A stretch of DNA of 32,089 bases, taken from Luteitalea sp. Lineage in GTDB: Bacteria > Acidobacteriota > Vicinamibacteria > Vicinamibacterales > Vicinamibacteraceae. The position numbers and the translations under genes are program-made. Below, one piece after another: positions 46 through 31,418 of this stretch. The first letter of the stretch is position 1, and each line of letters begins with the position of its first letter. The notes beneath the pieces were generated by a model, which had not been told where the DNA came from, did no database searches, and saw only the letters and a program-made list of their open reading frames with translations. The stretch lies in contig WHTT01000076.1 in the NCBI GenBank assembly GCA_009377605.1, forward strand, positions 1-32,089, given 5' to 3'.

Positions 46-83
46 AACGCGCCGTGCACGGGTTTGGCTTTTGGAATAGCAGA

Positions 84-1145
84 GTGTACCGAGATTTCTT
101 CGGCCTATCGGAGCGCCCGTTCGATCTCACGACGAACCCGCGGTTCCTGTTCCTCTCGAGCGGGCACCGCGAAGCCTTGAGCGTCCTGCACTACGGCATG
201 GCGGGCGACAAGGGCATCACGGTGCTCGTTGGTGAGGCCGGAACTGGAAAGACGACGCTCGCTCGCGCGGCCCTGGCCCACTACCAGAGCTCGGAGGTGC
301 TCGGCCTTTACTTGAACAACCCCACGCTGACGCGGCAGGAGTTCTTCGAGTTCGTTGCCCACGGCGTGGGACTCAGTCCGAAGGTGGCTCGGTCCAAGGC
401 CACGTTCCTGCGCGAGCTGGACGCGCTGCTCGGAGAGCGGCGTCGTTCCGGCAAGCTGACGGCGCTGATCGTCGACGAAGCGCAAGCGATACCTACCGAG
501 ATCCTCGAAGAGATTCGCATGCTGGCGAACCTCGAGTCCCCGACGAGCAAGCATTTGTCGATCCTGCTCGCGGGACAACCCGAGCTCGCGACGCGGCTGA
601 ACGAGCCGGCGTTACTTCCGCTCAAACAGCGAGTGGCCTTGCGCACCACGCTGACGCCATTTCGCCTGCTGGAAACCGCCTGCTATCTCGCCATGAGGAT
701 CCGTGTCGCGGGTGGCGACCCAGCCGCGATCTTTTACCGGTCGGCGGTGGAGCGCATTCATCAGGTGTCGAGGGGCGTTCCCCGGACGATCAACGTCGTC
801 TCCGACAACGCGCTGCTGACGGCCTTCGCCCTCAAGGCGAAGCCGGTCTCCACCGACATCATCGCCGAGGTGTGCAGGGATCTCGATGTGAACATGGGCG
901 GCAACGAGCCCGTCGTGGCGGAAGCACAGGCGGGGTCGTCGCAGGAGCCGGGCGCCGTCCCAGGTGGCGAGCGGCGGCAGCTGGCCCCAGACAGGGGGCC
1001 AGGGGATCTGCTCGGCACGCCACGGCCGCCCGCTGCCGTGCATCGACCGGAAGGTAACGACGATCACGCGAGAAAAGAGCCGTCGGCCTCCCGCTCGAAC
1101 GAGACGGCGATGGCGCGACGTGCAGTGATCTTATCTGTCGACTGA
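84..1145 (+). CDS. ExeA/MshM-like AAA ATPase, exosortase (XrtA)-locus type
   Basis: Cytoplasmic P-loop ATPase of the general-secretion ExeA-like family; members near PEP-CTERM/exosortase EPS loci are annotated as putative secretion ATPases. The GTG at 84 gives the family-typical N-terminus MYRDFFGLSERPF; an in-frame GTG at 54 would add ten atypical residues. Walker A GEAGTGKT is at residues 50-57, Walker B LIVDEA at about 128-133, and a sensor-like LAGQPEL follows near residue 160. The AAA core ends around residue 270. The last 80 or so residues are a low-complexity tail rich in Gly, Pro, Glu and Arg with no recognisable domain. The tyrosine kinase starts 8 nt after the stop, so the two are probably co-transcribed. 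Its exact role in EPS export is not established. Length is about 353 aa. Confidence 0.85.
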   Translation: MYRDFFGLSERPFDLTTNPRFLFLSSGHREALSVLHYGMAGDKGITVLVGEAGTGKTTLARAALAHYQSSEVLGLYLNNPTLTRQEFFEFVAHGVGLSPKVARSKATFLRELDALLGERRRSGKLTALIVDEAQAIPTEILEEIRMLANLESPTSKHLSILLAGQPELATRLNEPALLPLKQRVALRTTLTPFRLLETACYLAMRIRVAGGDPAAIFYRSAVERIHQVSRGVPRTINVVSDNALLTAFALKAKPVSTDIIAEVCRDLDVNMGGNEPVVAEAQAGSSQEPGAVPGGERRQLAPDRGPGDLLGTPRPPAAVHRPEGNDDHARKEPSASRSNETAMARRAVILSVD

Positions 1146-1153
1146 GGGTGAAC

Positions 1154-2086
1154 ATGAGCCGGATTGGTGATGCCATACTGCGGGTGAGCGAAGCCGCACG
1201 GGAACGCGGTGAGCCGGTGCCTCCGGACGTGGCCAGAGTGGGGGCCCTCCGACTCATTCAGGAGGATCCCCCCTACGAGTCGCCATGGACGTTCGACGAA
1301 GCGGCTCCTCCCCCCGCATCCATGCGGCCCCTTGTCGCGGTGCCGAAGACGAACCGGCCCACCCCGACGCCGCGTCCTCCCGGGTCGGCGCTGAGCCGCG
1401 ACGAGCCGCCGGCCGTGTTCCGCCGAGTCAACCCGCGGCTCGAAGAGCGGATCATCGTCTCGGGCAAGGTATCGGCTGAAGGTGTCGAGCAGTATCGCCA
1501 ATTGGCCGGAACGCTGCACCAGGCACAGCTCGATCGCGGGCTGCGTGTGGTCATGGTCACCAGCGCCGTGCTGGCCGAGGGCAAGTCGCTGACGTCGACG
1601 AATCTGGCCCTCACGTTGAGCGAGTCCTACCGACGTAGGGTCTTGCTCATCGATGCCGATCTCCGCCGCCCCACGCTTCACGACATTTTTCAAGTCGGAA
1701 ACGGGAGCGGACTCTCTGACGGCCTCCGGCGGGAAAGCCCAGCCACCTTCCCCACGCTCGCGATCTCGGATGCCCTGGCGCTTCTGCCGGCAGGAGCGCC
1801 CGACCCCGACCCGATGGCCGGCCTGACCTCCGCGCGGATGCGGCAATTGATCGACGAAGCCCGAAGCAAGTTCGACTGGGTCGTGATCGACACGCCGCCT
1901 GTGACGATGATGCCGGACGCAAACCTGCTGACCGCGACCGCCGACGGTGTCGTGCTGGTGGTGGCGGCAGCCCACGCGCCGTTCGACATCGTCAGGCAGG
2001 CTGCGAAGACAATCGGGCGCAAGAAGATTCTCGGCGTCGTCCTCAACCGCGCTGAGGCCGAGTCGATCCCGTATTCATCGTACTGA
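1154..2086 (+). CDS. CpsD/CapB-family tyrosine kinase (BY-kinase), EPS locus type
   Basis: Bacterial tyrosine autokinase that normally works with a membrane co-polymerase to control EPS chain length; here it is a stand-alone cytoplasmic kinase with no transmembrane segment. ATG at 1154 is preferred because GAGGG lies six bases upstream; an in-frame GTG at 1148 adds two residues. Residues 1-95 are a Pro-rich variable region. The kinase core has the Walker A equivalent SAVLAEGKS (137-145), Walker A' VLLIDADLR (163-171) and Walker B VVIDTP (243-248). The usual P-G before EGK is L-A here. The C-terminal tyrosine cluster is very short: only Tyr307 and Tyr310, the last residue. The partner co-polymerase is not in the window. 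Length 310 aa. Confidence 0.88.
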   Translation: MSRIGDAILRVSEAARERGEPVPPDVARVGALRLIQEDPPYESPWTFDEAAPPPASMRPLVAVPKTNRPTPTPRPPGSALSRDEPPAVFRRVNPRLEERIIVSGKVSAEGVEQYRQLAGTLHQAQLDRGLRVVMVTSAVLAEGKSLTSTNLALTLSESYRRRVLLIDADLRRPTLHDIFQVGNGSGLSDGLRRESPATFPTLAISDALALLPAGAPDPDPMAGLTSARMRQLIDEARSKFDWVVIDTPPVTMMPDANLLTATADGVVLVVAAAHAPFDIVRQAAKTIGRKKILGVVLNRAEAESIPYSSY

Positions 2087-2245: not shown

Positions 2246-2665
2246 ATGTCAGCGCACCGGACCGATCGAAGGCACGAGGTGTACGACGAGGACAGCTTTC
2301 GGCACTTCCTGGCGATAGAGCGAAGGCGCGCCGAGCGCTCGGGACGATCACTGCTCTTGCTGCTGGTGGATATCACGCCCGACAGCGAGGGGGACGGCTC
2401 GATTGATGCCGCAGAGGCCGACGCGTTGTTCGCTGCCCTCGCGACCTGCGTTCGAGAGATCGAGGTCATCGGCTGGTATCGGACTGGCCGATCAGCGGGT
2501 GCCGTGCTGACGCAAGGCGCCAACGGACCGCCGCCTGACGTCTCGCGTCGGATCGGCGAGCGCGTCGCTGGCGCGCTGAGCCAACGCTTGCCCGCGCGTG
2601 TGCGGGCGCGCCTCGAAGTGCGTGTGTTGCAACTGCAGACTAGGCCAAAGAACCGCTATGCATGA
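2246..2665 (+). CDS. Small degenerate GGDEF-like domain protein
   Basis: Soluble 139-residue protein with no signal peptide or membrane segment. Residues 17-45 (FRHFLAIERRRAER followed by a hydrophobic strand and VDI) look like the beginning of a GGDEF/nucleotidyl cyclase fold. Where GGDEF would be expected the sequence reads WYRTGRSAGAVL (77-88), so catalytic activity is unlikely. The same fold, with matching ERRRA, GW and VILT-type segments, makes up residues 77-190 of the next gene product, so the two are paralogous. The stop overlaps the start of the sugar transferase by 8 nt (ATGCATGA), implying translational coupling. A regulatory or scaffold role for the transferase is inference. It is the first gene after a sigma-54 promoter. 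Confidence 0.7.
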   Translation: MSAHRTDRRHEVYDEDSFRHFLAIERRRAERSGRSLLLLLVDITPDSEGDGSIDAAEADALFAALATCVREIEVIGWYRTGRSAGAVLTQGANGPPPDVSRRIGERVAGALSQRLPARVRARLEVRVLQLQTRPKNRYA

Positions 2666-3935
2666 CTGGATGACGACGTTCCACTGGAGTGAGGGGACGC
2701 CGATCGCGAGCGTGAGGCCCGTGCGATCACGCGCGCGTTCGCCACGGCGGGCCAACGGTTTGACGGTCGGGCACGCTCGCAACGGCAGCGTGGCCGGAAG
2801 TCTGTCCATTGCGTCGATGGTTGAAAGCCACGCCATCGAGCAGACGATGGGGCGACCGACTGCGGGGGCCGAGGCGCGCACCACCCAGCGCTTCCTCAAC
2901 GAGCGGCTGTTCAAGAGCGCGCTGATTCGCGAGCGGCGGCGAGCGGATCGCCTCGACGAGCTGTTCGCCCTCATCACGATCAAGGTGGATCCGCCCCTTC
3001 TCCCGGCGGTGCGTGCTGCGGTGGCGGCAACCGCCAGTGACATCGACATGACGGGATGGATGGAGCAGGGCACTACTGTCGGTGTGATCCTGACCGAGCT
3101 CACCAGGCCTGGCGATGCCGACGTTCGCCAGTTCGAAGCGTGCGTGCTGCACGAGCTGATGCGCCGTCTCGACACCGCAGCCATCGAGCGGCTCGAGATA
3201 CGGTGTTACGTGCATCGCGGCCCCGTGGCCGGAAGCGCCCCTGAGCTCCCCGAGGGTGACCCCCTACTCGACGAGCTCCGCGCCATGCACACGCGCCTGC
3301 CGCTTTGGAGCACAGCGAAGCGAACGCTCGACATCATTGGAAGCGCTACGCTCCTCGTGCTGATGTCCCCCATCCTCTTGCTCGCGGCCCTGTTCGTCAA
3401 GCTGACCTCGCCTGGCCCCATCCTCTTCCGGCAGGAGCGCATCGGCTACATGGCCACGCCGTTCACGATGCTCAAGTTTCGCACCATGCAGGTGAACAAC
3501 GATCCCGCGCTACATCGGCAGTACGTGACGGACTTCATCAAGTTCGCCAACCACGCGAGGGCGAGCAACGACGCGGCACCGTTCAAGATCGACAACGACC
3601 CACGAACAACGGCGATTGGCCGCCTGCTCCGCAGGACCAGCATGGACGAGCTGCCACAGCTCTGGAACGTCCTGAGGGGTGACATGTCGCTCGTGGGCCC
3701 TCGTCCACCGATCGCCTACGAGCTCGAGCACTATCAGCCCTGGCACTGGAGGCGCGTGCTCGAGGCCAAGCCAGGCCTCACGGGCTTGTGGCAGGTCACC
3801 GGTCGAAGCCGTACGACGTTCGACGAGATGGTCCGCCTCGACCTCCGCTACGCCAGGGCCAAGTCCCTCTGGTTGGACCTCAAGATTCTCCTTGCGACGC
3901 CACGGGCCGTTATTACGGGCCGCGGCGCGCGTTGA
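2658..3935 (+). CDS. Initiating undecaprenyl-phosphate sugar phosphotransferase with N-terminal GGDEF-like domain
   Basis: Membrane-associated polyprenyl-phosphate hexose-1-phosphate transferase (bacterial sugar transferase family, WcaJ/PglC-like C-terminal catalytic part) that starts repeat-unit assembly. ATG at 2658 overlaps the previous stop; an in-frame ATG at 2817 (residue 54) is possible, and neither has a strong ribosome site. Residues 1-76 are basic and variable. Residues 77-190 are a degenerate cyclase-like domain paralogous to the preceding protein. The catalytic part (about 221-425) begins with KRTLDIIGS and a membrane hairpin (about 226-250), then KFRTM (273-277), a DNDPRTT-type segment, SMDELPQLWNVL, SLVGPRP and the PGLTGLWQ motif. 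Unlike WcaJ it lacks four N-terminal transmembrane helices; the cyclase-like domain takes their place. The aminotransferase starts 21 nt later. Confidence 0.87.
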   Translation: MHDWMTTFHWSEGTPIASVRPVRSRARSPRRANGLTVGHARNGSVAGSLSIASMVESHAIEQTMGRPTAGAEARTTQRFLNERLFKSALIRERRRADRLDELFALITIKVDPPLLPAVRAAVAATASDIDMTGWMEQGTTVGVILTELTRPGDADVRQFEACVLHELMRRLDTAAIERLEIRCYVHRGPVAGSAPELPEGDPLLDELRAMHTRLPLWSTAKRTLDIIGSATLLVLMSPILLLAALFVKLTSPGPILFRQERIGYMATPFTMLKFRTMQVNNDPALHRQYVTDFIKFANHARASNDAAPFKIDNDPRTTAIGRLLRRTSMDELPQLWNVLRGDMSLVGPRPPIAYELEHYQPWHWRRVLEAKPGLTGLWQVTGRSRTTFDEMVRLDLRYARAKSLWLDLKILLATPRAVITGRGAR

Positions 3936-5210: not shown

Positions 5211-6641
5211 GTGAGCGTTGGCGGCGTCGCATTCACGGTCATCGCCGGGTTGCTCCTCGTCGTGCTGCCGCGGCGGCTCGCGGTGATTCCGCTGCTGCTT
5301 GCCGCCGCATACACGACCCGACTGCCTGTTGTCGAGCTCGGACCCGCCAGCCTGAGTGCGCTCCGCATCCTTGTGGTAGTCGGCATCGTGCGTGTTCTCG
5401 TGCGCGGCGAACGGGTCGCCAATGGCGTGAACGTGATCGACGCACTGCTGTTCGCCTGGGCGCTGCTCCTGGTCGGCTCGAGTGCGTTTCATACGCCAGA
5501 CGCGTGGACGGTTCGCTCGGGCATGGTGTTGGGTGAAGTGGGCGTGTACGTCCTCTGCCGGATCTTCATCCAGGACGCTGAAGACGTTCGCCGGATATTC
5601 GCAGTCTTGTGCGTGGTGCTCTTGCCGCTCGCCATCCTGATGTTGCTCGAGAAGCACACAGCGCACAACTTCTTCTCGATCATGGGAGGAACTGGCGAGA
5701 TCAACATCCGCGAAGGACACGTCCGGGCATATGGGCCGTTCGCGCATTCGATCTTGGCAGGGACGGTCGGTGCGACCTGCATGGCAATGGCCGTCGCCAT
5801 CTGGAGAATGCATCGCGTAAGCGCGCTCCTTGGACTGGCTGCCGGGGCGGGTATCGTCTTCGCCAGCACGTCGAGCGGGCCGATCATGATGGTCGCCTTT
5901 ACCTCGTTCGCGTTGCTGCTCTGGAAGCTGCGGAGCGTGCTGAGTCTGGTTCGCTGGGCGACGCTTGCCGGCATCGTCGCGCTCGACATCGTGATGGACG
6001 CCCCGGTGTACTTCCTCATGGGGCGCATCGATATTACCGGCGGCAGCGCTGGCTGGCACCGCGCGCAGCTGATCCGCTCGTCGCTCGAGCACCTGAGCGA
6101 ATGGTGGGCCGTCGGTACGGATTACACGAGGCATTGGATGGCTACCGGCGTACCGGCGAATTCGATCCACACGGACATCACCAATCACTTCCTGGCGATG
6201 GGGGTGCTGGGCGGTCTGCCGCTGTTGATCCTGTTCGCGCTCATGCTGGGTGTCGCGTTTCGAGCGGTGGGACGAGCAGTGCGGGACAATGAGCGCCGAT
6301 CACCCACGCAGGCCTTTCTCGTCTGGACCCTGGGAGCGATGCTGTTCGGGCAGGTGATGAACTTCTGGTCGATCTCGCTGTTCGACCAGTCGATCTCGTT
6401 CTTCTATCTGATCGTCGCGGCGATTACCGCGATCCAGCACCCGGCCGTGTCGGTGGCCAAGGCGGGCGTGTCTGCCCGTACTCGGCGTCGAAAGCGCAAA
6501 GGCCGGGGCGTTCGCGTGCCGGCAGCAGTAGGAATGAACGATGAGCGACGAGACTTTCACGATAACAGTATCGGTCAACCACGAGGAGGTGCTTCAGCAG
6601 AACCTCCTCTTGTCTCCTGGCCTGCTGAATGGAGGACGTAA
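5211..6641 (+). CDS. O-antigen polymerase/ligase-like membrane protein (Wzy-like)
   Basis: Polytopic inner-membrane protein with about ten or more hydrophobic segments between residues 1 and 405, including the family-like RAYGPFAHSILAGT segment in its middle. It would polymerise lipid-linked repeat units in the periplasm. GTG at 5211 is supported by AGAAGGA at 5196-5202; the ATG at 5206 is out of frame and stops after two codons. After the last membrane helix there is a strongly basic stretch (RTRRRKRKGRG) and a hydrophilic tail that overlaps the next gene by 101 nt, which is unusually long. Wzy proteins are poorly conserved, so the assignment rests on topology, length (476 aa) and operon position. 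Confidence 0.8.
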   Translation: MSVGGVAFTVIAGLLLVVLPRRLAVIPLLLAAAYTTRLPVVELGPASLSALRILVVVGIVRVLVRGERVANGVNVIDALLFAWALLLVGSSAFHTPDAWTVRSGMVLGEVGVYVLCRIFIQDAEDVRRIFAVLCVVLLPLAILMLLEKHTAHNFFSIMGGTGEINIREGHVRAYGPFAHSILAGTVGATCMAMAVAIWRMHRVSALLGLAAGAGIVFASTSSGPIMMVAFTSFALLLWKLRSVLSLVRWATLAGIVALDIVMDAPVYFLMGRIDITGGSAGWHRAQLIRSSLEHLSEWWAVGTDYTRHWMATGVPANSIHTDITNHFLAMGVLGGLPLLILFALMLGVAFRAVGRAVRDNERRSPTQAFLVWTLGAMLFGQVMNFWSISLFDQSISFFYLIVAAITAIQHPAVSVAKAGVSARTRRRKRKGRGVRVPAAVGMNDERRDFHDNSIGQPRGGASAEPPLVSWPAEWRT

Positions 6642-18395: not shown

Positions 18396-19991
18396 TCACC
18401 TCACACGTGGAGAATCCGCCGGCACGAAGCCGACAGCGACGAGCAGCCGCGCTATCGGCTTCGGGATCTGATCCCAGGCAACGAGCGTCAGCAGCGCACG
18501 CAGGGACAGCACGCCACTGAGAACCGCTGCGACAATTCCAATGCCGCCCGCCAGGACGAGAGGTAGCACGAAGAAACCGCAGAATACCGCCGCCGTAACG
18601 GACAGGAACATCAGGCCGGTTCGCAGGTTCTCAGGCGACCATCGGAACCCGCTGAGCGTCCGCACGACCGAATAGATGAGCAACCCGTGAAAGACATACG
18701 AGGCAAAGAACGCGATCCCAGCGCCACTCAAGCCAAACCAGCCCACACACACCCACGTCAATCCTACGTTGACGATCGACCAGGCGAGCTCGCTCCAAAA
18801 GAAGATGTTCTGCCGGCCCTTGGCCAGTACGATGAATCCCATCGGCCAGCTGATCACCCGGAGCGCCACGCCGAGGCAGATCCAGCGCAGAACCTCCACG
18901 GCCCCGCTGAACTCGCTCGAGTAGAACAGGGCGAGAACCACCGGCGCCAGCGTGAGCGTGGCTAGCGCCCCCGGCCCGCCGAGCAACATGCCCACCCGCG
19001 CCTGTTCGTTGACCAGACGATTGCACGCGGCGTTGTCCCCAGCGCAGGCGGTCAGGCGCGGGTAGAAGTCTGCACCCATCGCCTGCAGGATGAATCCAAC
19101 GTAGAGACCGCCAATCGCCCAGGCAGATTGATACAGGCCGGTTGCTTCGAACCCTATCCTGTGGAGGACAATGATGCGGACCGCGTAAGCGCTGCCCATC
19201 ATCATCATGCCACTCGCCATGAATGCCGCGCCCAGTTTGAACAGTGCCGCGGCCTCCTGCACCACCTGCCCGAATGTCATTCGAGGCACATCGATACGGA
19301 CACTCCGGCTATACCGCCAGGAGATCAACGCAGAAAGAGCAGCGACCGCCAGCAGCGACGGCACTATCCCCCGCTCTCGGAAGAAGTAAACCAGCAGAAT
19401 GCTGCTCAACGTGCCGAGCAGGGCTCCCACCACCGTCATCGCCGCGAGATCCTTCACGCGGCGCATGCCTTGTATCAGGGCGCCCTGTCCCACCGATACC
19501 AGACGGAAGAACACGGCCACCGACAACAGCGCCAAGCCGAGAGCCTGCTGATCGCTGCCGAAGGTTACCTGTGAGATAGGCTTGGCAAACGCCACGAGCA
19601 GGCCCGCACCCAGGATCCCCAAGAGGATCGACGCTCGCCTGAGCACGACCACCGTGCGAGCAATCCGCTCTTGGTCGCCAGAGCCGACGGCCTCCGCGAT
19701 CTGCCTGACGCCGCTGCTCTGCACGCCCATGCCAGCGACGCTCTGGGTCAAGTCGGCAACGGCGTTGTAAAGGCCCAACAAGCCGACGCCCGTCGGCCCG
19801 AGAAGGAGCGCCATGGCTTTCGCGCGCACGATGCGGAAGGCAAGGTTCACGGCAGTCGATCCCCCGATGAGAGCCGTCGACCGGAGGATCTGCCCATAGG
19901 TGTGCGTCTGAGAGGTACGCACCTCCGCCGCGTGCTGCGGAAGCGCCATGTTCGCAGCCGAGGCTGGCGTTGGGGACGATGATGAGACCAT
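18396..19991 (-). CDS. Wzx-type polysaccharide flippase
   Basis: Polytopic membrane protein of the MATE/MOP superfamily (polysaccharide biosynthesis, O-antigen translocase branch) that flips lipid-linked repeat units across the inner membrane. About 12 hydrophobic helices are visible, beginning with STALIGGSTAVNLAFRIVRAK and LLGPTGVGLLGLYNAV, typical for this family. ATG at 19991 is chosen (531 aa); a TTG at 20036 would add 15 residues, and no candidate has a good ribosome site. It is 103 nt from the upstream aminotransferase and one base from the downstream glycosyltransferase. This is the only flippase in the window. Confidence 0.87.
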   Translation of the reverse strand: MVSSSSPTPASAANMALPQHAAEVRTSQTHTYGQILRSTALIGGSTAVNLAFRIVRAKAMALLLGPTGVGLLGLYNAVADLTQSVAGMGVQSSGVRQIAEAVGSGDQERIARTVVVLRRASILLGILGAGLLVAFAKPISQVTFGSDQQALGLALLSVAVFFRLVSVGQGALIQGMRRVKDLAAMTVVGALLGTLSSILLVYFFRERGIVPSLLAVAALSALISWRYSRSVRIDVPRMTFGQVVQEAAALFKLGAAFMASGMMMMGSAYAVRIIVLHRIGFEATGLYQSAWAIGGLYVGFILQAMGADFYPRLTACAGDNAACNRLVNEQARVGMLLGGPGALATLTLAPVVLALFYSSEFSGAVEVLRWICLGVALRVISWPMGFIVLAKGRQNIFFWSELAWSIVNVGLTWVCVGWFGLSGAGIAFFASYVFHGLLIYSVVRTLSGFRWSPENLRTGLMFLSVTAAVFCGFFVLPLVLAGGIGIVAAVLSGVLSLRALLTLVAWDQIPKPIARLLVAVGFVPADSPRVR

Positions 19992-20094
19992 CTGCGACTG
20001 TATTGACTTCAGCGAAGAACTGTATCGGGATCGCAAGGCGATGCGACCGACTCCGTCGGGACCGTCAGGGCGTAGGGCCGGGCACTAGTGTGGG

Positions 20095-23630: not shown

Positions 23631-26600
23631 TCAAGGCGTTGCCTCGACGAACACCACGTCGACCCAGTAATTGGAGCTATTGAACGTCTGTGTCGGAAAC
23701 GTGCTCGGGCCGTACTGATAGACGCCGTTTCCACCGGACACGCCGTTCGCAAGCGCCTCGAGCGCTTCGCTCCCGGCCCCAGACGAGGCGAAGTATCCGA
23801 CGTCGACGGCATACCGACCATTGGGAGCGTGGTACGACGCCAGGTACACCGTGTTGGCGGTGACCGGCACCGGCGTGTCGAACATCATCTGCTGCCAGCC
23901 GCTACTCGTCTCGTCCGTGAACGTCACGGTCGCCAGCGGAACACCGCTCGCGCTCCACAGGGTTCCGATGTGGACGCCGGTATTCAGCGGCCCCTTGTAG
24001 AAGCGAATGCCCGTGATGACACCGTCGACGGTGGTCCGGAACTTGACGCCGAGCTCCACGGCGTCCGTGTCGGGGTCTGAAGCCGTTCCCGGAACGGTGG
24101 ACTCCGGCCAGATCGTGCACGGGCAGTCCAGCGACGGCGGCGCAGTCGTCGTGAAGCTCGCCGGCGTGGACGGCGCCGAGCTCGGGTTGTTCGCGGCATC
24201 CACGGAGGTCACACGGAAGTAGTACGTGACGCCGCTCGAGAGGCCCGTCAGCGTCACCTCGTGCGATGAGGTCAGGCCCGGTGTGGATGCCGACAAGCTC
24301 AGATCGCCTGGCGACGTGCCGTAGTCGACTCGTGATGTGGCCAGTTCGTTGGTGGCCCAGGTGATCGTCGCGGTGGTATTCGTCGGGCTGGCGGCAATCC
24401 CGCTAATCACCGGCGGCGTGCTATCCGTTCCGTAGCTGGCCTGATAGTTCCCCTGCAGCGCAGCGAACATCGCATACGCGACGCCCTTGATCGTCTCGAC
24501 GCGATAGGTCACCGGCGACCCGTTCCGCGACAGCCCGGTGAGGGACGCCGTACCGAACGTGATCGGCAGCATTGCCTCGATACCGTTTGCACCGCTGCCC
24601 ACGCTGACCGAGAAGCTGAGCGTGCCGCCACTCCAATTGAGGTCCCCAAACGAGGATTCGTTGCGGCCGTCGAGCCAGGTGAGCAACTGCTCCGCCGAGA
24701 TGATTGGCACCGAGCGAGCCAGCGCGGAGGCCACGATTGCGTCCGAGCCGGTGTGCTGCACCGTGTCGGTGTGCATGTTGGTAACGAAGAAGCCGTAGTA
24801 GCCTTGGGGCCCAATGGCTCGATCGAGCAGCGTGTCGATGGTGAACGGCCAGGACTGGTCCGACTCGTCGGTGAGCTGCGTCGCCGCCTGGTACACGTCC
24901 ACCACCGCCCCGTTGGCGCTGGCGAACCGCATTGGCATGCCCGAGCCGGTCATGAACCCCGGGCGATCCTGCACCCAGGACGCAGGCCAGTAGTAATAGT
25001 TCGTGTCGAGCCGTATGCCGTGGTCGAGCGCGACCTGCGGCTGCGTGTCGTAGTCGCTGAACGCGATACAGTGCGTCCGGTTCGTCGTTGGCGCGGGGAG
25101 GCTCGGAAATAGCTGCGAGAACTGTGCGATGTCGTTCGTGTAGTTCGACTGCAGCGACTGAGGCGTGTAGTCGCTGCACCCTGTCGTGATGTGCACCGCA
25201 ATCTCGAACCCGTCAGCCACATAGCTCGCCGCCTGCGCGTTGCTGATGGGCGTGTGCGGGTAGATGTACGACGTGCCCCGCACGCACTCCCAGCGGTCCA
25301 GGTTGCAGCCCGCAGGGCTGTTGTTCTTGTAGATATCGAATCGGCCTGCGGTGCCGTTGTTGGCATGGTCGTCGCCCGTCATCACCACGGCCGCCTTTTC
25401 GCCGCGCGGGAAGTACCAGAACCGCGGCAGCGGCTTCCGGCCGATGTTCATGTGGTTGATCAAGTTGGCCAGCAAGCGCTGCTGCTCATCCGCCTGAGGG
25501 ATGGCGATCTTGTCGAAATCCACCCAATCGGGCTCGGCGCCGCCGAAGTAGAGGTCGTCCGATCGAATGGGCGGAAATCCATCACGCTCCTGGCCGGACC
25601 AGGCCGGGTTGCCCTGACGCGTGTAGATGATCGACTTCGCCAGATCGTAGGTGAAGGCCGCAGCCTCACCGCCGCTCCCACCCGCACTGTTGAGCGTCAC
25701 AGCCGGATGGACGGTCGGCGTGCTCGCATCGGCGTAGAGCGTGGCAATCGTCGACGCACCGCTGACCGTATAGCGGTCCGCCACGCCGTGATATTGCATC
25801 GATGCCGCCGTGATGCCGGCGCCGGGAGGAACATTCGTGTCCACGGCAAGGTAGCCTTCCGGCAGGGTTCCGCCGGAGTCGCTCAGGCCGAGCAGCCCGG
25901 CCAGGCTCTTGGTTGGCCGCATCGCGATGAGATTCCCACCACCGTCCACCCAGTTGGTGAGCATCGTCACCTGGGCGCTAGTGAGCGGCATCTCACCGAG
26001 GATCACCACGTCGTGGGCAGCGAGCACGGTGGCCGACACCTGAGAGATGTCCATGGCCGTGAAAGCGTTGAGGCCTTCGGCGCGGAGAATCTCTGCGTAG
26101 TACCGGCTGAAGGGATTGCCGCTCCACCCAATCGCGAGGATTGGACCGCCCGGGCCTTCAGTCGGCGGTGGCGGCGGTGCGGCGGCCGTCGTGAAGCTCC
26201 ACGTGAAGTCGGCCGCCATGGGATTCCCGGCAAGATCCTGCACACCGCCAACCCCGCCCACGACGCGGGCCGTATACGTGGTCTCGTACGCGAGCGGCGC
26301 GCTCGGTGTCAGCGTTGCCGTGCGAGCGCCTGCCGAATAGCTCACCGTTGCCGGCACGAGGACGTTCGATGCGTTGCGCAGCTCGAAGGTCGACTCGTTG
26401 ACGGACGCCGCGTCCACGTTCTCGCTGAACGTTGCGGTGACCGCGGTCGTGATTGCGACCCCACTGGCGCCACTCGATGGACTGACGTCCGTCACCGCCG
26501 GCGGCGTCGTATCCGGCGCCAGCGAGGTCACGAAGACAACGTCAACCCAGTAGTTCGCGCTCTGAAAGGTCTGATTCGGGAAGCCGCTCGCGCCGTACTT

Positions 26601-29600
26601 GTAAACGCCGTTCGGGCCGTCCTGACCATCCTGCAGCGCATGGAGCGGAGCGTTGTCCACGCCGCCACTGGCGAAGTAGCCAAGGTCGCCCGTGTGGAAG
26701 CCGGAGCTCGTGTGATACGAGACGACGTAGCTGGTATTCGCCGAGATGGCGACCGGCGACGGCAGCGTGGCCTCCTGCCATCCGGATCCGCTCTCACCCG
26801 TGAAGCTCACCGACGCCAGCAGTGTCCCGCCCGCGGCCCAGAGATTGCCGGCGTGAGGACCGACGTTCTCTGGCGCCTTGTAGAAGCGAATCGCGGTGAT
26901 GTACCCATCCTGGTCGGCCCGGAAACGTGTGCCCACCTCCACGGCGTTCGGATCGTTGGCCGCCCCGGACGCCGGCACCACGCTCGGATCCCAGATCGAG
27001 CAGGGGCACGTCGCAGTGGCGGGCTCCTCCGCCGTCGTGAAGCTCCACGTGAAGTCGGCCGCTAACGGGTTCCCCGCAAGATCCTCCACACCACCAGCCC
27101 CACCCACGACGCGGGCCGTGTACGTGGTCTCGTACGCGAGCGGTGCGCTCGGCATGAGCGTCGCCGTGCGGGTGCCTCCCGAATAGCTCACCGTTGCCGG
27201 CACGAGCACGTTCGATGCATCACGCAGCTGGAAGGTCGACCCGTTGACAGACGCCGCGGCGACGTTCTCGCTGAACGTCGCGGTGACGGTCGTGGTGATG
27301 GAGACAGCACTCGCGCCACTCGATGGACTGACGGCTGTCACCGACGGCGGTGTCGTATCCGGCGCGACCGAGGTCACAAAGACAACGTCAGCCCAGTAGC
27401 TCGCGCTCTGAAAGGTCTGATTCGGAAAGCCGCTCGCGCCGTACTTGTAAACCCCGTTGGGCCCGTCCTGACCATTCTGCAGCGCATGGAGCGGAGCGTT
27501 GTCCACGCCGCCACTGGCGAAGTAGCCAAGGTCGCCGTTATAGAAGCCAGAGCTCGTGTGGTACGACACGACGTAGCTGGTGTTCGCCGAGATGGCGACC
27601 GGCGACGCCAGCGTGGCTTCCTGCCACCCGGATCCGCTCTCGCCGGTAAAGCTCACCGATGCCAGCAGTGTCCCGCCCGCGGTCCAGAGATTGCCGATGT
27701 GAGGACCGACGTTCTCTGGGGCCTTGTAGAACCGAATCGCGGTGATGTACCCATTCTGGTCGGCCCGGAAACGTGTGCCCAGCTCCACGGCGTTCGGATC
27801 GTTGGCCGCTCCAGACGCCGGAACCACGCTCGGCGCCCAGATCGAGCAGGGACACGTCGCCGTTCCCGGGTCGGATCCCACCGTCACCGAGATGGGGGCT
27901 GACGGCTGCCCCAGATTGCCGCTGTCATCGACCGCTCGACTGACGATCGAAGCAACGCCAGGGCCTCCTGTCTGCCAGGCGTAGCTCCAGGTCTCCCCGC
28001 CAGTCGCAGCTCGCCAGCTCGCGGCGCCATCGACCGAGACCTCGACACCGCCCACGTTCCCGCCGCCGGAGTCGGCGGCAGTACCGGTGATGGTGACTGT
28101 CGTGTTCGCGGCAACATAGTCGTTGGCTGCCGGTGAGGTCACGGCCGACACGGGAGCGGCACTATCGGATGATGGGACAGCGGGCACCAGGCCGGGCTGC
28201 ATCGTGCCGGGCTGCGCGCCCATGTCGGCGAACAGATTGAGCGTGGCCTGCTGCATCGCCAGGCTCGGTGGCGCGTTCCCCCCGTAGTGCGTGTCGTCCA
28301 GGCCCCAGGACCACTGCACGGTGCCGGCGCCGAAGACGAGCGCACCGCTCGGATGCTTGTAGAGCGTCAGCGCGTGATTGCCGGTGCCGGGGCCATAGGT
28401 GGATCCGTAGTCCTGGAGGTAATCGACGCCGGTGACGGTGGTGTTGGAAAGGCGAATTAGTCCCGGCGGGCGGAAGCCATTGTCACGGTCTTCGTCCCAC
28501 TCGTAGCCGAGGGTGCCATCCGGCATGGTGGCGAACGCGCCGGGCGTCAGCTCCGCCACCGACGTGTTACGCCAGAAGCGGAGCTTGCCGAAGGCGGCCG
28601 GCACGCGGATGCCGGTCGTCCCGGAGTTCACCGCGAAGATCGTGCCGGTCAGAGCGTTCTCCGGATGCCCGCCGTCAGCCGGCGGGCTGAAGCGCGGATC
28701 GCGCCACGTGCCGGTCCAGATGTTGGACACCGGATCGATCTTGGCGTTGGCGTGCGTCTCCTTGTAACAGACCAGCGTGCGATAGGCCCCGGCGCCAGAC
28801 GCAATGCTGTTCTCCCAGCGCGTCTTCCAGAACACCTCGTTGCCGCTGAAGAAGGCGAGGTGCACACCGGCGGCGCGCGCGTTCTCGACGTGCATGCGCT
28901 GCGCCGCCGACCAGTACTCGTCGTGACCCACGGACAGGAAGACCTTGTGCTCGAGGATCTCGGCGCCGCGGCGATCCGAGTCGATGCCCGTCGAGTAGCT
29001 GACGTCGTACCCGTTGGCTTCCAGCCATCGGACCATCGGGTACTCGGCGCCGAAGAGCCAATCTTCTGGCGAGGTACCGCGGGTCGTGAAGGGACGGTTG
29101 TAGCTCACCTTGTACGCGCGGCCGGCCGGGTTGCCGACATACAAGCTGTTGCCGCCGTACTGGTTGTACGCCTGCCACGTGGTGTCGGAGGTCTGGAACA
29201 GGAGATCCGATTGGCCGTCATCGTCACGTACGACGAAGACAATGTGACTACCGCCGCCCCCGCCGAGTCGTGTTGCCTTCGCGATGTAAATGCCCGACAC
29301 GGCCGTCGCTGGCACGGACCATGAGCCCGTCACGCTCCAGTTCCCGCAGTCGACGAGGCCGGTGCTCTGTTCGACCAGGCAGTTCGGTTGGCTCCGGCGC
29401 AGCACTGGTCCGATGGTTGCGACCTTGCGTGCGCCCAAGCCACCGTAGTAGCCCAGTCGATAGATGTCCAGACGGAAGAGGAGAGCAGTCGTCTTGACCT
29501 TGAAACGAATCGTCTGCCCCTGATTGACGCTGATCTGCGTCGCGAACCCCTGAATCGCCGAATCGCCCGCGCCGCTCACATCCCACTCGCTTGCGGGATT

Positions 29601-29753
29601 TCCCGGCTTCGTGTTCTCGCAGAGAATGGGATTCGCGATCGGCGGATCGCAAGGGTCGCCCTGCTGCGCCCTTGGGGCATTCATCTCGCCCGCCCACAAC
29701 ACAGCGAGAGTCAGAGCTATCGCGAAACGCACGACTACATAAGCGCGCGGCAT
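23631..29753 (-). CDS. Giant exported mosaic protein: DMFase-beta-like, DUF4082, Ig-like and deacetylase-like domains
   Basis: 2040-residue secreted protein. ATG at 29753 has GAGGA five bases upstream (an ATG at 29765 adds four residues) and starts a signal peptide (VVVRFAIALTLAVLWAG). Approximate order: 25-518 N,N-dimethylformamidase beta-subunit-like domain (IYRLGYYGG, SVGHDEYWS, WSWGLDD); 522-625 Ig-like; 630-795 DUF4082-like, opening CPCSIW; 799-903 Big_5/Ig-like (SPSSGAS, TVTATFSENV); 915-1078 and 1082-1185 a second DUF4082/Big_5 pair; 1202-1775 a GATase/ThuA-like Rossmann part followed by a polysaccharide-deacetylase-like part with VVMTGDDH; 1779-1868 fibronectin III; 1877-2038 third DUF4082-like copy (CPCTIW). 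No PEP-CTERM or other C-terminal sorting signal is seen. It may bind or deacetylate EPS outside the cell; activity is inferred. A sigma-54 promoter precedes it. Confidence 0.82.
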   Translation of the reverse strand: MPRAYVVVRFAIALTLAVLWAGEMNAPRAQQGDPCDPPIANPILCENTKPGNPASEWDVSGAGDSAIQGFATQISVNQGQTIRFKVKTTALLFRLDIYRLGYYGGLGARKVATIGPVLRRSQPNCLVEQSTGLVDCGNWSVTGSWSVPATAVSGIYIAKATRLGGGGGSHIVFVVRDDDGQSDLLFQTSDTTWQAYNQYGGNSLYVGNPAGRAYKVSYNRPFTTRGTSPEDWLFGAEYPMVRWLEANGYDVSYSTGIDSDRRGAEILEHKVFLSVGHDEYWSAAQRMHVENARAAGVHLAFFSGNEVFWKTRWENSIASGAGAYRTLVCYKETHANAKIDPVSNIWTGTWRDPRFSPPADGGHPENALTGTIFAVNSGTTGIRVPAAFGKLRFWRNTSVAELTPGAFATMPDGTLGYEWDEDRDNGFRPPGLIRLSNTTVTGVDYLQDYGSTYGPGTGNHALTLYKHPSGALVFGAGTVQWSWGLDDTHYGGNAPPSLAMQQATLNLFADMGAQPGTMQPGLVPAVPSSDSAAPVSAVTSPAANDYVAANTTVTITGTAADSGGGNVGGVEVSVDGAASWRAATGGETWSYAWQTGGPGVASIVSRAVDDSGNLGQPSAPISVTVGSDPGTATCPCSIWAPSVVPASGAANDPNAVELGTRFRADQNGYITAIRFYKAPENVGPHIGNLWTAGGTLLASVSFTGESGSGWQEATLASPVAISANTSYVVSYHTSSGFYNGDLGYFASGGVDNAPLHALQNGQDGPNGVYKYGASGFPNQTFQSASYWADVVFVTSVAPDTTPPSVTAVSPSSGASAVSITTTVTATFSENVAAASVNGSTFQLRDASNVLVPATVSYSGGTRTATLMPSAPLAYETTYTARVVGGAGGVEDLAGNPLAADFTWSFTTAEEPATATCPCSIWDPSVVPASGAANDPNAVEVGTRFRADQDGYITAIRFYKAPENVGPHAGNLWAAGGTLLASVSFTGESGSGWQEATLPSPVAISANTSYVVSYHTSSGFHTGDLGYFASGGVDNAPLHALQDGQDGPNGVYKYGASGFPNQTFQSANYWVDVVFVTSLAPDTTPPAVTDVSPSSGASGVAITTAVTATFSENVDAASVNESTFELRNASNVLVPATVSYSAGARTATLTPSAPLAYETTYTARVVGGVGGVQDLAGNPMAADFTWSFTTAAAPPPPPTEGPGGPILAIGWSGNPFSRYYAEILRAEGLNAFTAMDISQVSATVLAAHDVVILGEMPLTSAQVTMLTNWVDGGGNLIAMRPTKSLAGLLGLSDSGGTLPEGYLAVDTNVPPGAGITAASMQYHGVADRYTVSGASTIATLYADASTPTVHPAVTLNSAGGSGGEAAAFTYDLAKSIIYTRQGNPAWSGQERDGFPPIRSDDLYFGGAEPDWVDFDKIAIPQADEQQRLLANLINHMNIGRKPLPRFWYFPRGEKAAVVMTGDDHANNGTAGRFDIYKNNSPAGCNLDRWECVRGTSYIYPHTPISNAQAASYVADGFEIAVHITTGCSDYTPQSLQSNYTNDIAQFSQLFPSLPAPTTNRTHCIAFSDYDTQPQVALDHGIRLDTNYYYWPASWVQDRPGFMTGSGMPMRFASANGAVVDVYQAATQLTDESDQSWPFTIDTLLDRAIGPQGYYGFFVTNMHTDTVQHTGSDAIVASALARSVPIISAEQLLTWLDGRNESSFGDLNWSGGTLSFSVSVGSGANGIEAMLPITFGTASLTGLSRNGSPVTYRVETIKGVAYAMFAALQGNYQASYGTDSTPPVISGIAASPTNTTATITWATNELATSRVDYGTSPGDLSLSASTPGLTSSHEVTLTGLSSGVTYYFRVTSVDAANNPSSAPSTPASFTTTAPPSLDCPCTIWPESTVPGTASDPDTDAVELGVKFRTTVDGVITGIRFYKGPLNTGVHIGTLWSASGVPLATVTFTDETSSGWQQMMFDTPVPVTANTVYLASYHAPNGRYAVDVGYFASSGAGSEALEALANGVSGGNGVYQYGPSTFPTQTFNSSNYWVDVVFVEATP
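26191..27882 (-). repeat. Tandem duplication of an 846-bp DUF4082/Big_5 module
   Basis: The sequence from 26191 reappears at 27037, a period of 846 bp or 282 codons, keeping frame. The two copies are about 85-90 percent identical by eye over the 240 bp compared and share long exact blocks. Each encodes one DUF4082-like plus one Ig-like domain. A third, more diverged DUF4082 copy lies at about 23640-24126. Confidence 0.85.
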
Positions 29754-29849
29754 GTCCGTCCTCATTCGTCGCGGCGTCCGGCCCGTAATACTTCGACTTG
29801 CACCCAGACAGGAACAGGGAGGGGGCGTCTGGAAGACGCAGTGCTATCG

Positions 29850-30010: not shown

Positions 30011-30045
30011 CGCGGGGCCTAACTGCCTGTGGCTAAAGCCCCGCG
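30011..30045. terminator. Hairpin spanning the transposase stop codon
   Basis: CGCGGGGC (30011-30018) and GCCCCGCG (30038-30045) form a perfect 8-bp GC stem with a 19-nt loop that contains the transposase stop codon (30033-30035) and most of the left terminal repeat. It may terminate transcription leaving the element. There is no T-run. Confidence 0.45.
30018..30032. repeat. Left terminal inverted repeat of the IS
   Basis: CCTAACTGCCTGTGG, directly adjoining the transposase stop codon; perfect inverted match to 31495-31509. Confidence 0.75.
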
Positions 30046-31418
30046 ATTCGCGGCGCGACGGGTAGCCACTCAAAACGATGACGCGCGGCCAACAACGGCG
30101 ATTCATCGACGGAGCGCAGGTCACCGACGCCCCAGATGGCCTCGATGCGCGCCCACACGGCGATGAAGAGGGTCAGCGCGGCCGCGAGCCGGCCCTGCAA
30201 GCGCCGCGGCTTGCCGAGGCCGAGGCACTGACGCATCACGAGCCCCAAGTTGAAGCCGCCGCCATGAATCAGCAGGCGCTTCAAGATGTTGTCGTGTCCG
30301 CGCAGATGCGTGCGTCGCATCCCACCGGTGTCATAGAGATGCGCAAACGATCGTTCGGCGAGTTCCGCCCGTCGCCGCCGCAAACGTCCCGCGCGGGCGC
30401 CCCGCATACGGCGGCGATTCCCATAGACGGGGGCTTGCGCGTTCGGCGCGTCGGACCAATCGCGCCGGCCGCGGTCCGGCTCCGAGATGTACGACCGCAG
30501 GCCCACCGCAGCCAGACCGACCATCGTCTCGTTGCTGTGGTACCCCTTGTCGGCCACGATCTCGTGCAGTCCCTCCGCGTCCTCGGTGGCCGCGTGTGCG
30601 CTCTCGACCTGTTCGGCCGCCGCAATCGTCGTCTCGACCAGCGTCGTTGTGTCGCCCTGGTCTGCGTCCTGCAGGGTCACCGCGACCAGCGCGCCGCTGG
30701 CCAGATCGACCGCATGTTCGGCTTTGTGCGCCAGGTGCGTCCGGCCGTCCTTCATCTTCGCGACCTTCGCGTCGGGATCGGTGGGACTCCTCCAGTCCTT
30801 ATTGGAGGTTTTCTTCTTCCGCTTGCGGTCAAACCGTGCCAGCACGTCTCGCGTCGGCGTCTTGATGCCGGAGGCCGCGGCGAGGCGGATCAGATACGCC
30901 TGATAGTCTTCGCCCGTATCCCGTCGCACGATACTCCGCATGGCCGCATTGGCTTCCAACGTGGTGGCGTCGATCGCGATCGTGCGGCCCTTCAAGAGGC
31001 CGGCGGCCACGAGGCGCTGCTGGACCCACGTAAAGACCGCCCGATGCGTGTCCACATCGATCAGCCGGCGGGTGCGCGAGATCGTCGAATGGTCCGGCGC
31101 AGCCTCCTCGAGTCCGAGTCGCACGAAGCTCCGCACCGCCAGCGAATCCGCCGCGCGCCACGCGATGCCGCGCTCCGAATCGATGCCTTCGAAGTACCCG
31201 ACCAGCAACAGCCGGAAGTAGCGACCCGGCGCCAGACTCGGGCGGCCCAACACCGGCGCGTAAAAGGATCGACAGGCGTCTTCGACAAACGCGTCGAAGC
31301 CGTCGGCATCCAGCAACGCGTTCAATCGCGTGTAGAAGGGATGCCCCGGCGAGACCGGCAGATCAGACGCGGCGATCCACAACGGGGGTTGCTCGGGGTC
31401 GCGGGTGCCCATGGCCAT
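30033..31418 (-). CDS. IS1182-family transposase
   Basis: DDE transposase of 461 residues that appears intact. The N-terminal DUF772-type domain (about 25-125) includes FYAPVLGRPSLAPGRYFRLL and DHSTISRTR. The catalytic core has Asp150 in IAIDATTLEANA, Asp290 in IVADKGYHSNET and Glu355 in AELAERSFAHLYDTGG. The C-terminal RGHDNILKRLLIH segment is typical of IS1182 and relatives. A long open frame on the opposite strand is only a high-GC shadow. The start ATG at 31418 has no ribosome site but lies about one base from a predicted promoter start, so it may be leaderless; ATG at 31412 is an alternative. Confidence 0.9.
   Translation of the reverse strand: MAMGTRDPEQPPLWIAASDLPVSPGHPFYTRLNALLDADGFDAFVEDACRSFYAPVLGRPSLAPGRYFRLLLVGYFEGIDSERGIAWRAADSLAVRSFVRLGLEEAAPDHSTISRTRRLIDVDTHRAVFTWVQQRLVAAGLLKGRTIAIDATTLEANAAMRSIVRRDTGEDYQAYLIRLAAASGIKTPTRDVLARFDRKRKKKTSNKDWRSPTDPDAKVAKMKDGRTHLAHKAEHAVDLASGALVAVTLQDADQGDTTTLVETTIAAAEQVESAHAATEDAEGLHEIVADKGYHSNETMVGLAAVGLRSYISEPDRGRRDWSDAPNAQAPVYGNRRRMRGARAGRLRRRRAELAERSFAHLYDTGGMRRTHLRGHDNILKRLLIHGGGFNLGLVMRQCLGLGKPRRLQGRLAAALTLFIAVWARIEAIWGVGDLRSVDESPLLAARHRFEWLPVAPRIAGL

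Follow-up and report, generated by a model that had tools for sequence, protein, structure and literature searches.

A degenerate GGDEF-fold domain beside and fused to the phosphoglycosyl transferase of a polysaccharide locus in Luteitalea

The window analysed here, a 32,089-nucleotide stretch of a Luteitalea sp. contig (WHTT01000076.1), encodes a domain of predicted GGDEF fold twice over, once as a small free-standing protein (the solo) and once at the N-terminus of the monotopic phosphoglycosyl transferase (PGT) whose gene follows directly. The computed basis for what follows consists of the GGDEF ancestry and fold of these domains, the loss of their active site, the family-wide retention of the c-di-GMP inhibitory site (I-site), and the linkage of solo and PGT genes in the Vicinamibacteraceae. 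Together, these observations raise the possibility, to which we assign a probability of about 0.5, that a PelD-like receptor or contact module built from dead GGDEF domains gates the initiating PGT of a Wzx/Wzy exopolysaccharide, through steps of ligand binding, heterodimerisation and gating that we infer.

The solo gene runs from an ATG at 2246 to a stop codon at 2663-2665, and the PGT gene from an ATG at 2658 to a stop codon ending at 3935. A mechanical ORF finder placed the PGT start at a GTG at 2598; the ATG at 2658 was used instead because a same-genus relative opens with the identical MHDWMTTFHWSE. The 8-nt overlap of the two genes given in the first-pass annotation is borne out, with nucleotides 2658-2665 shared. 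Both genes belong to a run that also holds the ATPase and tyrosine kinase of Table 1, a DegT aminotransferase, glycosyltransferases and a hydrophobic protein, which we infer to be possibly the polymerase (Wzy) of the run. Downstream of the polysaccharide cluster, the window encodes a 2044-residue protein (23631-29765) with DMFA2_C, bacterial Ig and three DUF4082 domains, and close to the contig end a transposase (DUF772, DDE; 30033-31418).

Table 1. Features of the window, with coordinates and the evidence or remark attached to each.
Feature	Position	Strand	Evidence or remark
AAA ATPase resembling XrtA/PEP-CTERM-associated ATPase	54..1145	+	TIGR03015, below cut-off; same gene run
BY-type tyrosine kinase of polysaccharide systems	1148..2086	+	TIGR01007 above cut-off; same gene run
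Solo degenerate GGDEF-fold protein, 139 aa	2246..2665	+	domain at residues ~15-130
Solo R31, aligned with WspR R198 (Arg completing a neighbour's I-site)	2336..2338	+	alignment
Solo R70-E-I-E73 at I-site; RxxE here, RxxD in 16/17 solos	2453..2464	+	alignment
Solo G76-W77, family signature (W in place of Arg before GGDEF)	2471..2476	+	alignment
Solo RTGR (R79-T-G-R82) where WspR has GGEEF; active site lost	2480..2491	+	alignment
Solo R106, aligned with WspR K273 / PleD R390 (second I-site Arg)	2561..2563	+	alignment
Solo/PGT gene overlap, 8 nt	2658..2665	+	
Monotopic PGT with N-terminal degenerate GGDEF-fold domain, 425 aa	2658..3935	+	
PGT N-terminal 67 residues, predicted disordered	2658..2858	+	pLDDT under 50
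Fused degenerate GGDEF-fold domain, residues ~78-188	2889..3221	+	profile, AlphaFold/Foldseek
Fused R98, aligned with WspR R198	2949..2951	+	alignment
Fused S127-D-I-D130 at I-site; Arg gone, Asp retained	3036..3047	+	alignment
Fused G133-W134 signature	3054..3059	+	alignment
Fused EQGT (E136-Q-G-T139) in place of GGEEF	3063..3074	+	alignment
Fused C162 at second-Arg position	3141..3143	+	alignment
PGT catalytic domain with re-entrant membrane helix, residues ~205-420	3270..3917	+	PF02397 6.4e-64; structures
Hydrophobic, apparently multi-spanning protein	5211..6641	+	same gene run; no Pfam or NCBIfam match
Flippase, polysaccharide-synthesis family (Wzx type)	18396..20036	-	PF13440

A GGDEF domain normally makes the signal molecule c-di-GMP. 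The first-pass annotation had described both regions as GGDEF-like, and structure prediction agrees, in that the two folds do not differ and both resemble a cyclase domain. The AlphaFold model of the solo has a pLDDT of 88 and a pTM of 0.81, and that of the PGT a pLDDT of 81 with its first 67 residues disordered. The best 50 Foldseek matches of the solo model are all GGDEF-domain entries, PelD included; VIA-align with the same model likewise gave GGDEF-domain entries throughout, and residues 74-205 of the PGT model match GGDEF domains (6khu, Z 13.7; PelD 4dn0, Z 10.3). Searched against the PDB, a profile of the fused domain matches GGDEF/diguanylate cyclase chains only, and the first 17 matches of a joint profile of 64 domains are diguanylate cyclases, the best at 3.3e-6. 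PF00990 is matched singly by 17 of the 64 members; the window's own two domains have no match to it in the single-sequence Pfam scan. The domain stops after the strand that follows helix 97-114 (solo numbering) and thus lacks the final helix and strand with which a complete GGDEF domain closes. By fold and detectable sequence kinship it belongs to the GGDEF domain superfamily, and both copies are, as modelled, of GGDEF fold and GGDEF ancestry. A relationship to class III nucleotidyl cyclases, considered in the same annotation, appears unlikely: GGDEF domains fill the lists, and no such cyclase is among the best structural or sequence matches.

Other candidates were rejected. The proteasomal protein RPN11, the best PDB match (0.005) for a profile of the six closest solos, is a chance match, because it is centred on the GWY stretch and is gone with a deeper profile. 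The zf-HC2 and Ap4A_phos_N matches of the solo in the single-sequence Pfam scan, below cut-off and absent from relatives, are also due to chance.

The two domains of the window are homologous to each other. They share 30% identity over 122 residues (BLASTP E = 2e-5 as a single comparison), and the aligned stretch takes in the ERRRA helix, the GW turn, the AVLT/VILT strand and the LEVR/LEIR strand, all of which had been noticed at the outset. Among some 3,600 ORFs, the window's solo is recovered at 3e-11 when the fused domains supply the profile, and the window's PGT at 8e-9 when the solos do; because separate profiles recover each other's members, the likeness is not a matter of chance. The predicted secondary structure of the solo (H15-32, E36-43, H55-66, E74-79, E83-89, H97-114, E123-130) has its counterpart in the fused domain (H82-99, E103-109, H112-125, E131-136, E140-145, H153-170, E180-186), and in the AlphaFold models the order of helices and strands agrees element by element. 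Identity, reciprocal profile matches and equal secondary-structure order bear out the proposal of a domain duplicated alone and in fusion, and the extent first given for the fused copy, residues 77-190 of the sugar transferase, agrees closely with that in Table 1. In the tree, the 18 solos fall into a single supported clade that takes in both Vicinamibacteraceae and Nitrospira; as read from the sequences, the event that separated solo and fused copies is old.

The C-terminal part of the fused protein is a monotopic PGT with the PF02397 catalytic domain and its re-entrant helix, and residues 205-421 of the model match WbaP (8t53, Z 20.3) and PglC (8e37, Z 19.1). The N-terminal part is not that of the large monotopic PGTs, WbaP and WcaJ, which carry a four-helix transmembrane (TM) bundle and the PF13727 DUF. 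Residues 1-212 contain no transmembrane-like stretch (best 19-residue hydropathy 1.23, versus 2.41 for the re-entrant helix), PF13727 gave no match in the PGT at E up to 1, and the GGDEF fold stands at the position of bundle and DUF, much as the first reading had it for WcaJ-type enzymes. This placement suggests an alternative in which no ligand takes part: the GGDEF fold would only pair PGT subunits, or a PGT with a solo, in place of the dimerising TM bundle and DUF of WbaP-type enzymes, and any surviving I-site motif would be a structural relic. The domain does occupy the exact place of the dimerising part of large PGTs (PMC10942596), and the evidence on the other side lies in the conservation of the I-site, considered below.

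Both domains are almost certainly catalytically dead. The domains were aligned on WspR, the published R198, R242 and D245 falling at the correct numbers in the sequence used, and neither copy possesses the combination of GG(D/E)EF loop and metal-binding Asp that an active diguanylate cyclase has. The GGDEF position had been described as replaced in both, and it is, by RTGR in the solo and EQGT in the PGT. Across the family, the sequence of this loop is variable, the Arg before it has become Trp in 63 of the 64 domains, and most solos have Tyr in place of the metal-binding Asp. That one or both domains might still be active nucleotide cyclases with an unusual motif would accord with the retained fold, but with the loop and the preceding Arg lost, as is the metal-binding Asp in most solos, and with no conserved sequence in the loop, we give this reading almost no chance. 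The former GTP pocket might instead sense another nucleotide (UMP, UDP or a UDP-sugar), as has been proposed for the DUF of WbaP, which is stabilised by UMP, UDP and UTP in an enzyme inhibited by UMP with an IC50 of ~4 uM (PMC10942596), and a nucleotide base could stack against the Trp that is nearly invariant where the active site used to be. However, the residues that hold GTP are gone, the loop varies, and conservation is found at the I-site instead, which makes such sensing improbable.

The I-site in PelD of P. aeruginosa needs R367, D370 and R402 (PMC8461298); in PelD of B. cereus it comprises R363, D366 and R395, with a KD of ~103 nM and binding abolished by each Ala mutation (PMC7112168); and in WspR, R198 is supplied by a second, neighbouring GGDEF domain, completing the site around intercalated c-di-GMP (PMC2270323). 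In the solo/fused family, the I-site Arg is present in 17 of 17 solos and 39 of 47 fused domains, the Asp in 16 of 17 and 46 of 47, and the R198-type Arg in 15 of 17 and 48 of 48. The position of the second I-site Arg (that of PelD R402), which we take to be equivalent to PleD R390, is Arg in 15 of 17 solos; most fused domains have Lys or Arg there, half of them Lys, which is also the residue of WspR. The spacing between the two Arg is 36 in the family, as against 35 and 32 in the two PelDs. Across the family, therefore, RxxD persists without the catalytic motif, which is the pattern of a PelD-like I-site receptor.

The argument rests on the retention of RxxD after the catalytic site was lost, and part of that retention may be inheritance, because RxxD is also common to related intact GGDEF domains: none of the 21 other GGDEF domains compared lacks it, and intact GGDEFs of the same phylum carry it too. 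This ubiquity, together with the eroded I-site of the window's own copies, counts in favour of ligand-free pairing. Yet the I-site residues have outlasted their active-site neighbours despite large divergence (mean column identity of the domain alignment, 27%), and in Nitrospira the full set survives in the solos but not in the fused copy, so that a purely structural role appears rather unlikely. Since the conserved residues are those of the inhibitory and not the catalytic site, the sequences favour c-di-GMP or a related cyclic dinucleotide over GTP or ATP. The original suggestion of a response to a nucleotide is narrowed to a ligand of the c-di-GMP type, with GTP and ATP less favoured, and we consider it somewhat more probable than an even chance that a cyclic dinucleotide is bound somewhere in the family. 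Further degenerate GGDEF-like proteins of the same phylum (L034, L040:2-1129, L043:2-1126) keep an RDxD-type motif and have no GGDEF.

The window's own two copies lack RxxD, the solo reading REIE and the fused copy SDID. Each is without at least one I-site residue, but the R198-type Arg survives in both (R31, R98). Among the 17 solos compared, the change from Asp to Glu occurs only in the window's species, and RESD is retained in the solo of a same-genus relative. Binding by the window's own solo is a possibility that we place somewhat below even odds.

PGTs with an N-terminal degenerate GGDEF domain occur in Acidobacteriota, Nitrospirota and Desulfobacterota/Geobacter-type genomes. The first-pass annotation knew of no described function for the arrangement, and no description was located in the open-access literature searched. 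The arrangement is not peculiar to the window but a widespread architecture. Within the Vicinamibacteraceae, the solo adjoins the PGT in five of seven genomes, the sixth case lying at a contig end and one of the seven being without the pair, and G031, another genome of the order, likewise has a linked solo. The Nitrospira loci examined have a single oxidoreductase gene between solo and PGT, of the Gfo/Idh/MocA type and resembling UDP-GlcNAc 3-dehydrogenase in the loci read. A divergent form of the linked solo is present in L071/G230; deeper profiles found none in other lineages besides L071, several loci there ending close to the PGT. The L071 locus has three copies of the domain. Its record is titled as a Bordetella parapertussis MAG, but its PGT and solo ORFs agree in length and scores with the ORFs of G230, which belongs to the same phylum as the window, and the organism name looks wrong. 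Two Nitrospirae MAGs carry the GGDEF-like domain and the PGT in two adjacent ORFs (L118:5841-6994, L119:3464-4648), which are either gene splits or assembly frameshifts.

The I-site Arg is distributed unevenly between the copies. In the 65 rows without a solo, the fused domain retains it in 63; of the two exceptions, one (L048) lies where a contig begins and the other is a gap in the alignment. For Nitrospira and the window's genus, Ser (in a single case Phe) occupies this position of the fused copy, and the solo has Arg in every case; G002, G003, G005 and G031 keep Arg in both copies. Because the fused copy has lost the Arg while the solo keeps it, these sequences suggest a division of labour between the two in Nitrospira and the window's genus, although in the PGT tree the correspondence between fused-Arg loss and solo presence needs only about two losses, too few independent events for statistics. 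The same pair could be put to another use, with the solo acting as antagonist or decoy: bound to the fused domain, it would keep the PGT inactive until something displaced it, and in the window's genus it would have no ligand of its own. A small protein whose gene overlaps that of the PGT by 8 nt, a partner domain without the I-site Arg, and an Asp changed in this species alone would all suit such a role; the intact RESD of the same-genus relative argues against it, and we regard it as quite improbable.

A gating role by way of a cyclic dinucleotide presupposes a ligand. The host genome (G000) has two intact GGDEF proteins and two PF13487 (HD-GYP-type) matches, with no match to EAL or PilZ, and its c-di-GMP network is sparse. 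Both intact GGDEF proteins have Asp, not Ser, at the base-selecting position, which we take to mark c-di-GMP-type GGDEF enzymes, Ser presumably being the mark of Hypr enzymes. Judged from these proteins and the HD-GYP-type domains, c-di-GMP is probably made in the host. Hypr GGDEF enzymes can make 3',3'-cGAMP, and intact GGDEF proteins with Ser for the usual Asp (GHxxGS) at this position are found in the same order (L008-L011, L031, L036, L038).

In the mechanism that we favour, a cyclic dinucleotide, most likely c-di-GMP, would bind the I-site of a dead GGDEF domain as intercalated dimers, as in PleD, WspR and PelD. The bound ligand would then join two such domains, because the R198-type Arg of a neighbouring domain can complete the site formed by the I-site Arg and Asp. 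Two PGT subunits would be paired in genomes that have only the fused domain, while in Nitrospira and the window's genus the solo would provide the ligand-binding face and the PGT-borne copy, with its R198-type Arg, would serve as docking partner. Binding would set the state of the dimer or assembly and hence the activity of the PGT, in a manner that can be likened to the proposed effect of EpsW~P on EpsZ. Some form of control of the PGT by the solo/fused pair seems to us reasonably likely. The more general proposal is that, in Acidobacteriota, Nitrospirota and Desulfobacterota, the initiating PGT of Wzx/Wzy pathways is gated directly by c-di-GMP or a related cyclic dinucleotide that cross-links degenerate GGDEF domains, the task of binding having passed to a separate solo in some lineages. 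It is tentative and has less than an even chance of being correct.

To our knowledge, the c-di-GMP receptors known on polysaccharide machines are on synthase systems (PelD, BcsE, Alg44 and others). If the enzyme committing the shared undecaprenyl carrier bears a receptor domain, second-messenger control would lie at the first step, in phyla whose polysaccharide control is little known. Most members of the family escape Pfam's GGDEF model, and censuses of c-di-GMP receptors based on that model would therefore miss them. The solo/fused pair also lends itself to a clean test, which would involve just a small soluble protein, an enzyme and a set of named residues. Post-translational control of Wzx/Wzy pathways is incompletely understood (PMC12802240). 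No description of a GGDEF domain with a phosphoglycosyl or sugar transferase was found in the open-access literature searched; a PNAS 2021 network study of monotopic PGTs lay outside that search and might mention the fusion. Degenerate-GGDEF receptors as such are known; what has no description in that literature is their occurrence both as part of and next to the PGT that initiates a Wzx/Wzy pathway.

Among known systems, PelD shares with the family a degenerate GGDEF domain without active site, RxxD with a downstream Arg, and service in an exopolysaccharide system, and it is a structural match at Z 10.3. It differs in its four TM helices, its GAF domain and its synthase-dependent system; the 139-residue solo is a single domain with no GAF match and no TM-like hydrophobic stretch, and the domain of the window is fused to or encoded beside a PGT and stops short of the closing GGDEF helix and strand. 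BcsE of cellulose systems likewise brings a non-catalytic GGDEF fold (degenerate GGDEF, DUF2819) to a polysaccharide machine (PMC8461298), but with other partner domains, in a synthase system, and with no sequence match seen to the window's domains. The large PGTs WbaP and WcaJ have the same catalytic domain (8t53, Z 20.3) and an N-terminal accessory region that is perhaps regulatory, a response to uridine nucleotides being proposed for that of WbaP (PMC10942596), whereas the window's PGT has a degenerate GGDEF domain instead of TM bundle and PF13727 DUF. Finally, in Myxococcus xanthus a small single-domain signalling protein, EpsW, is the proposed activator of a monotopic PGT, EpsZ, whose dimerisation it would promote (PMC12802240). 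EpsW belongs to the phosphorylated receiver domains and EpsZ to the large PGTs, whereas the window's solo is a degenerate GGDEF domain homologous to the PGT's own; with no receiver match in Pfam and a model of GGDEF fold, it is not a response regulator of the EpsW type. By analogy, then, EpsW is the nearest functional precedent for the solo/PGT pair, and PelD the nearest structural one.
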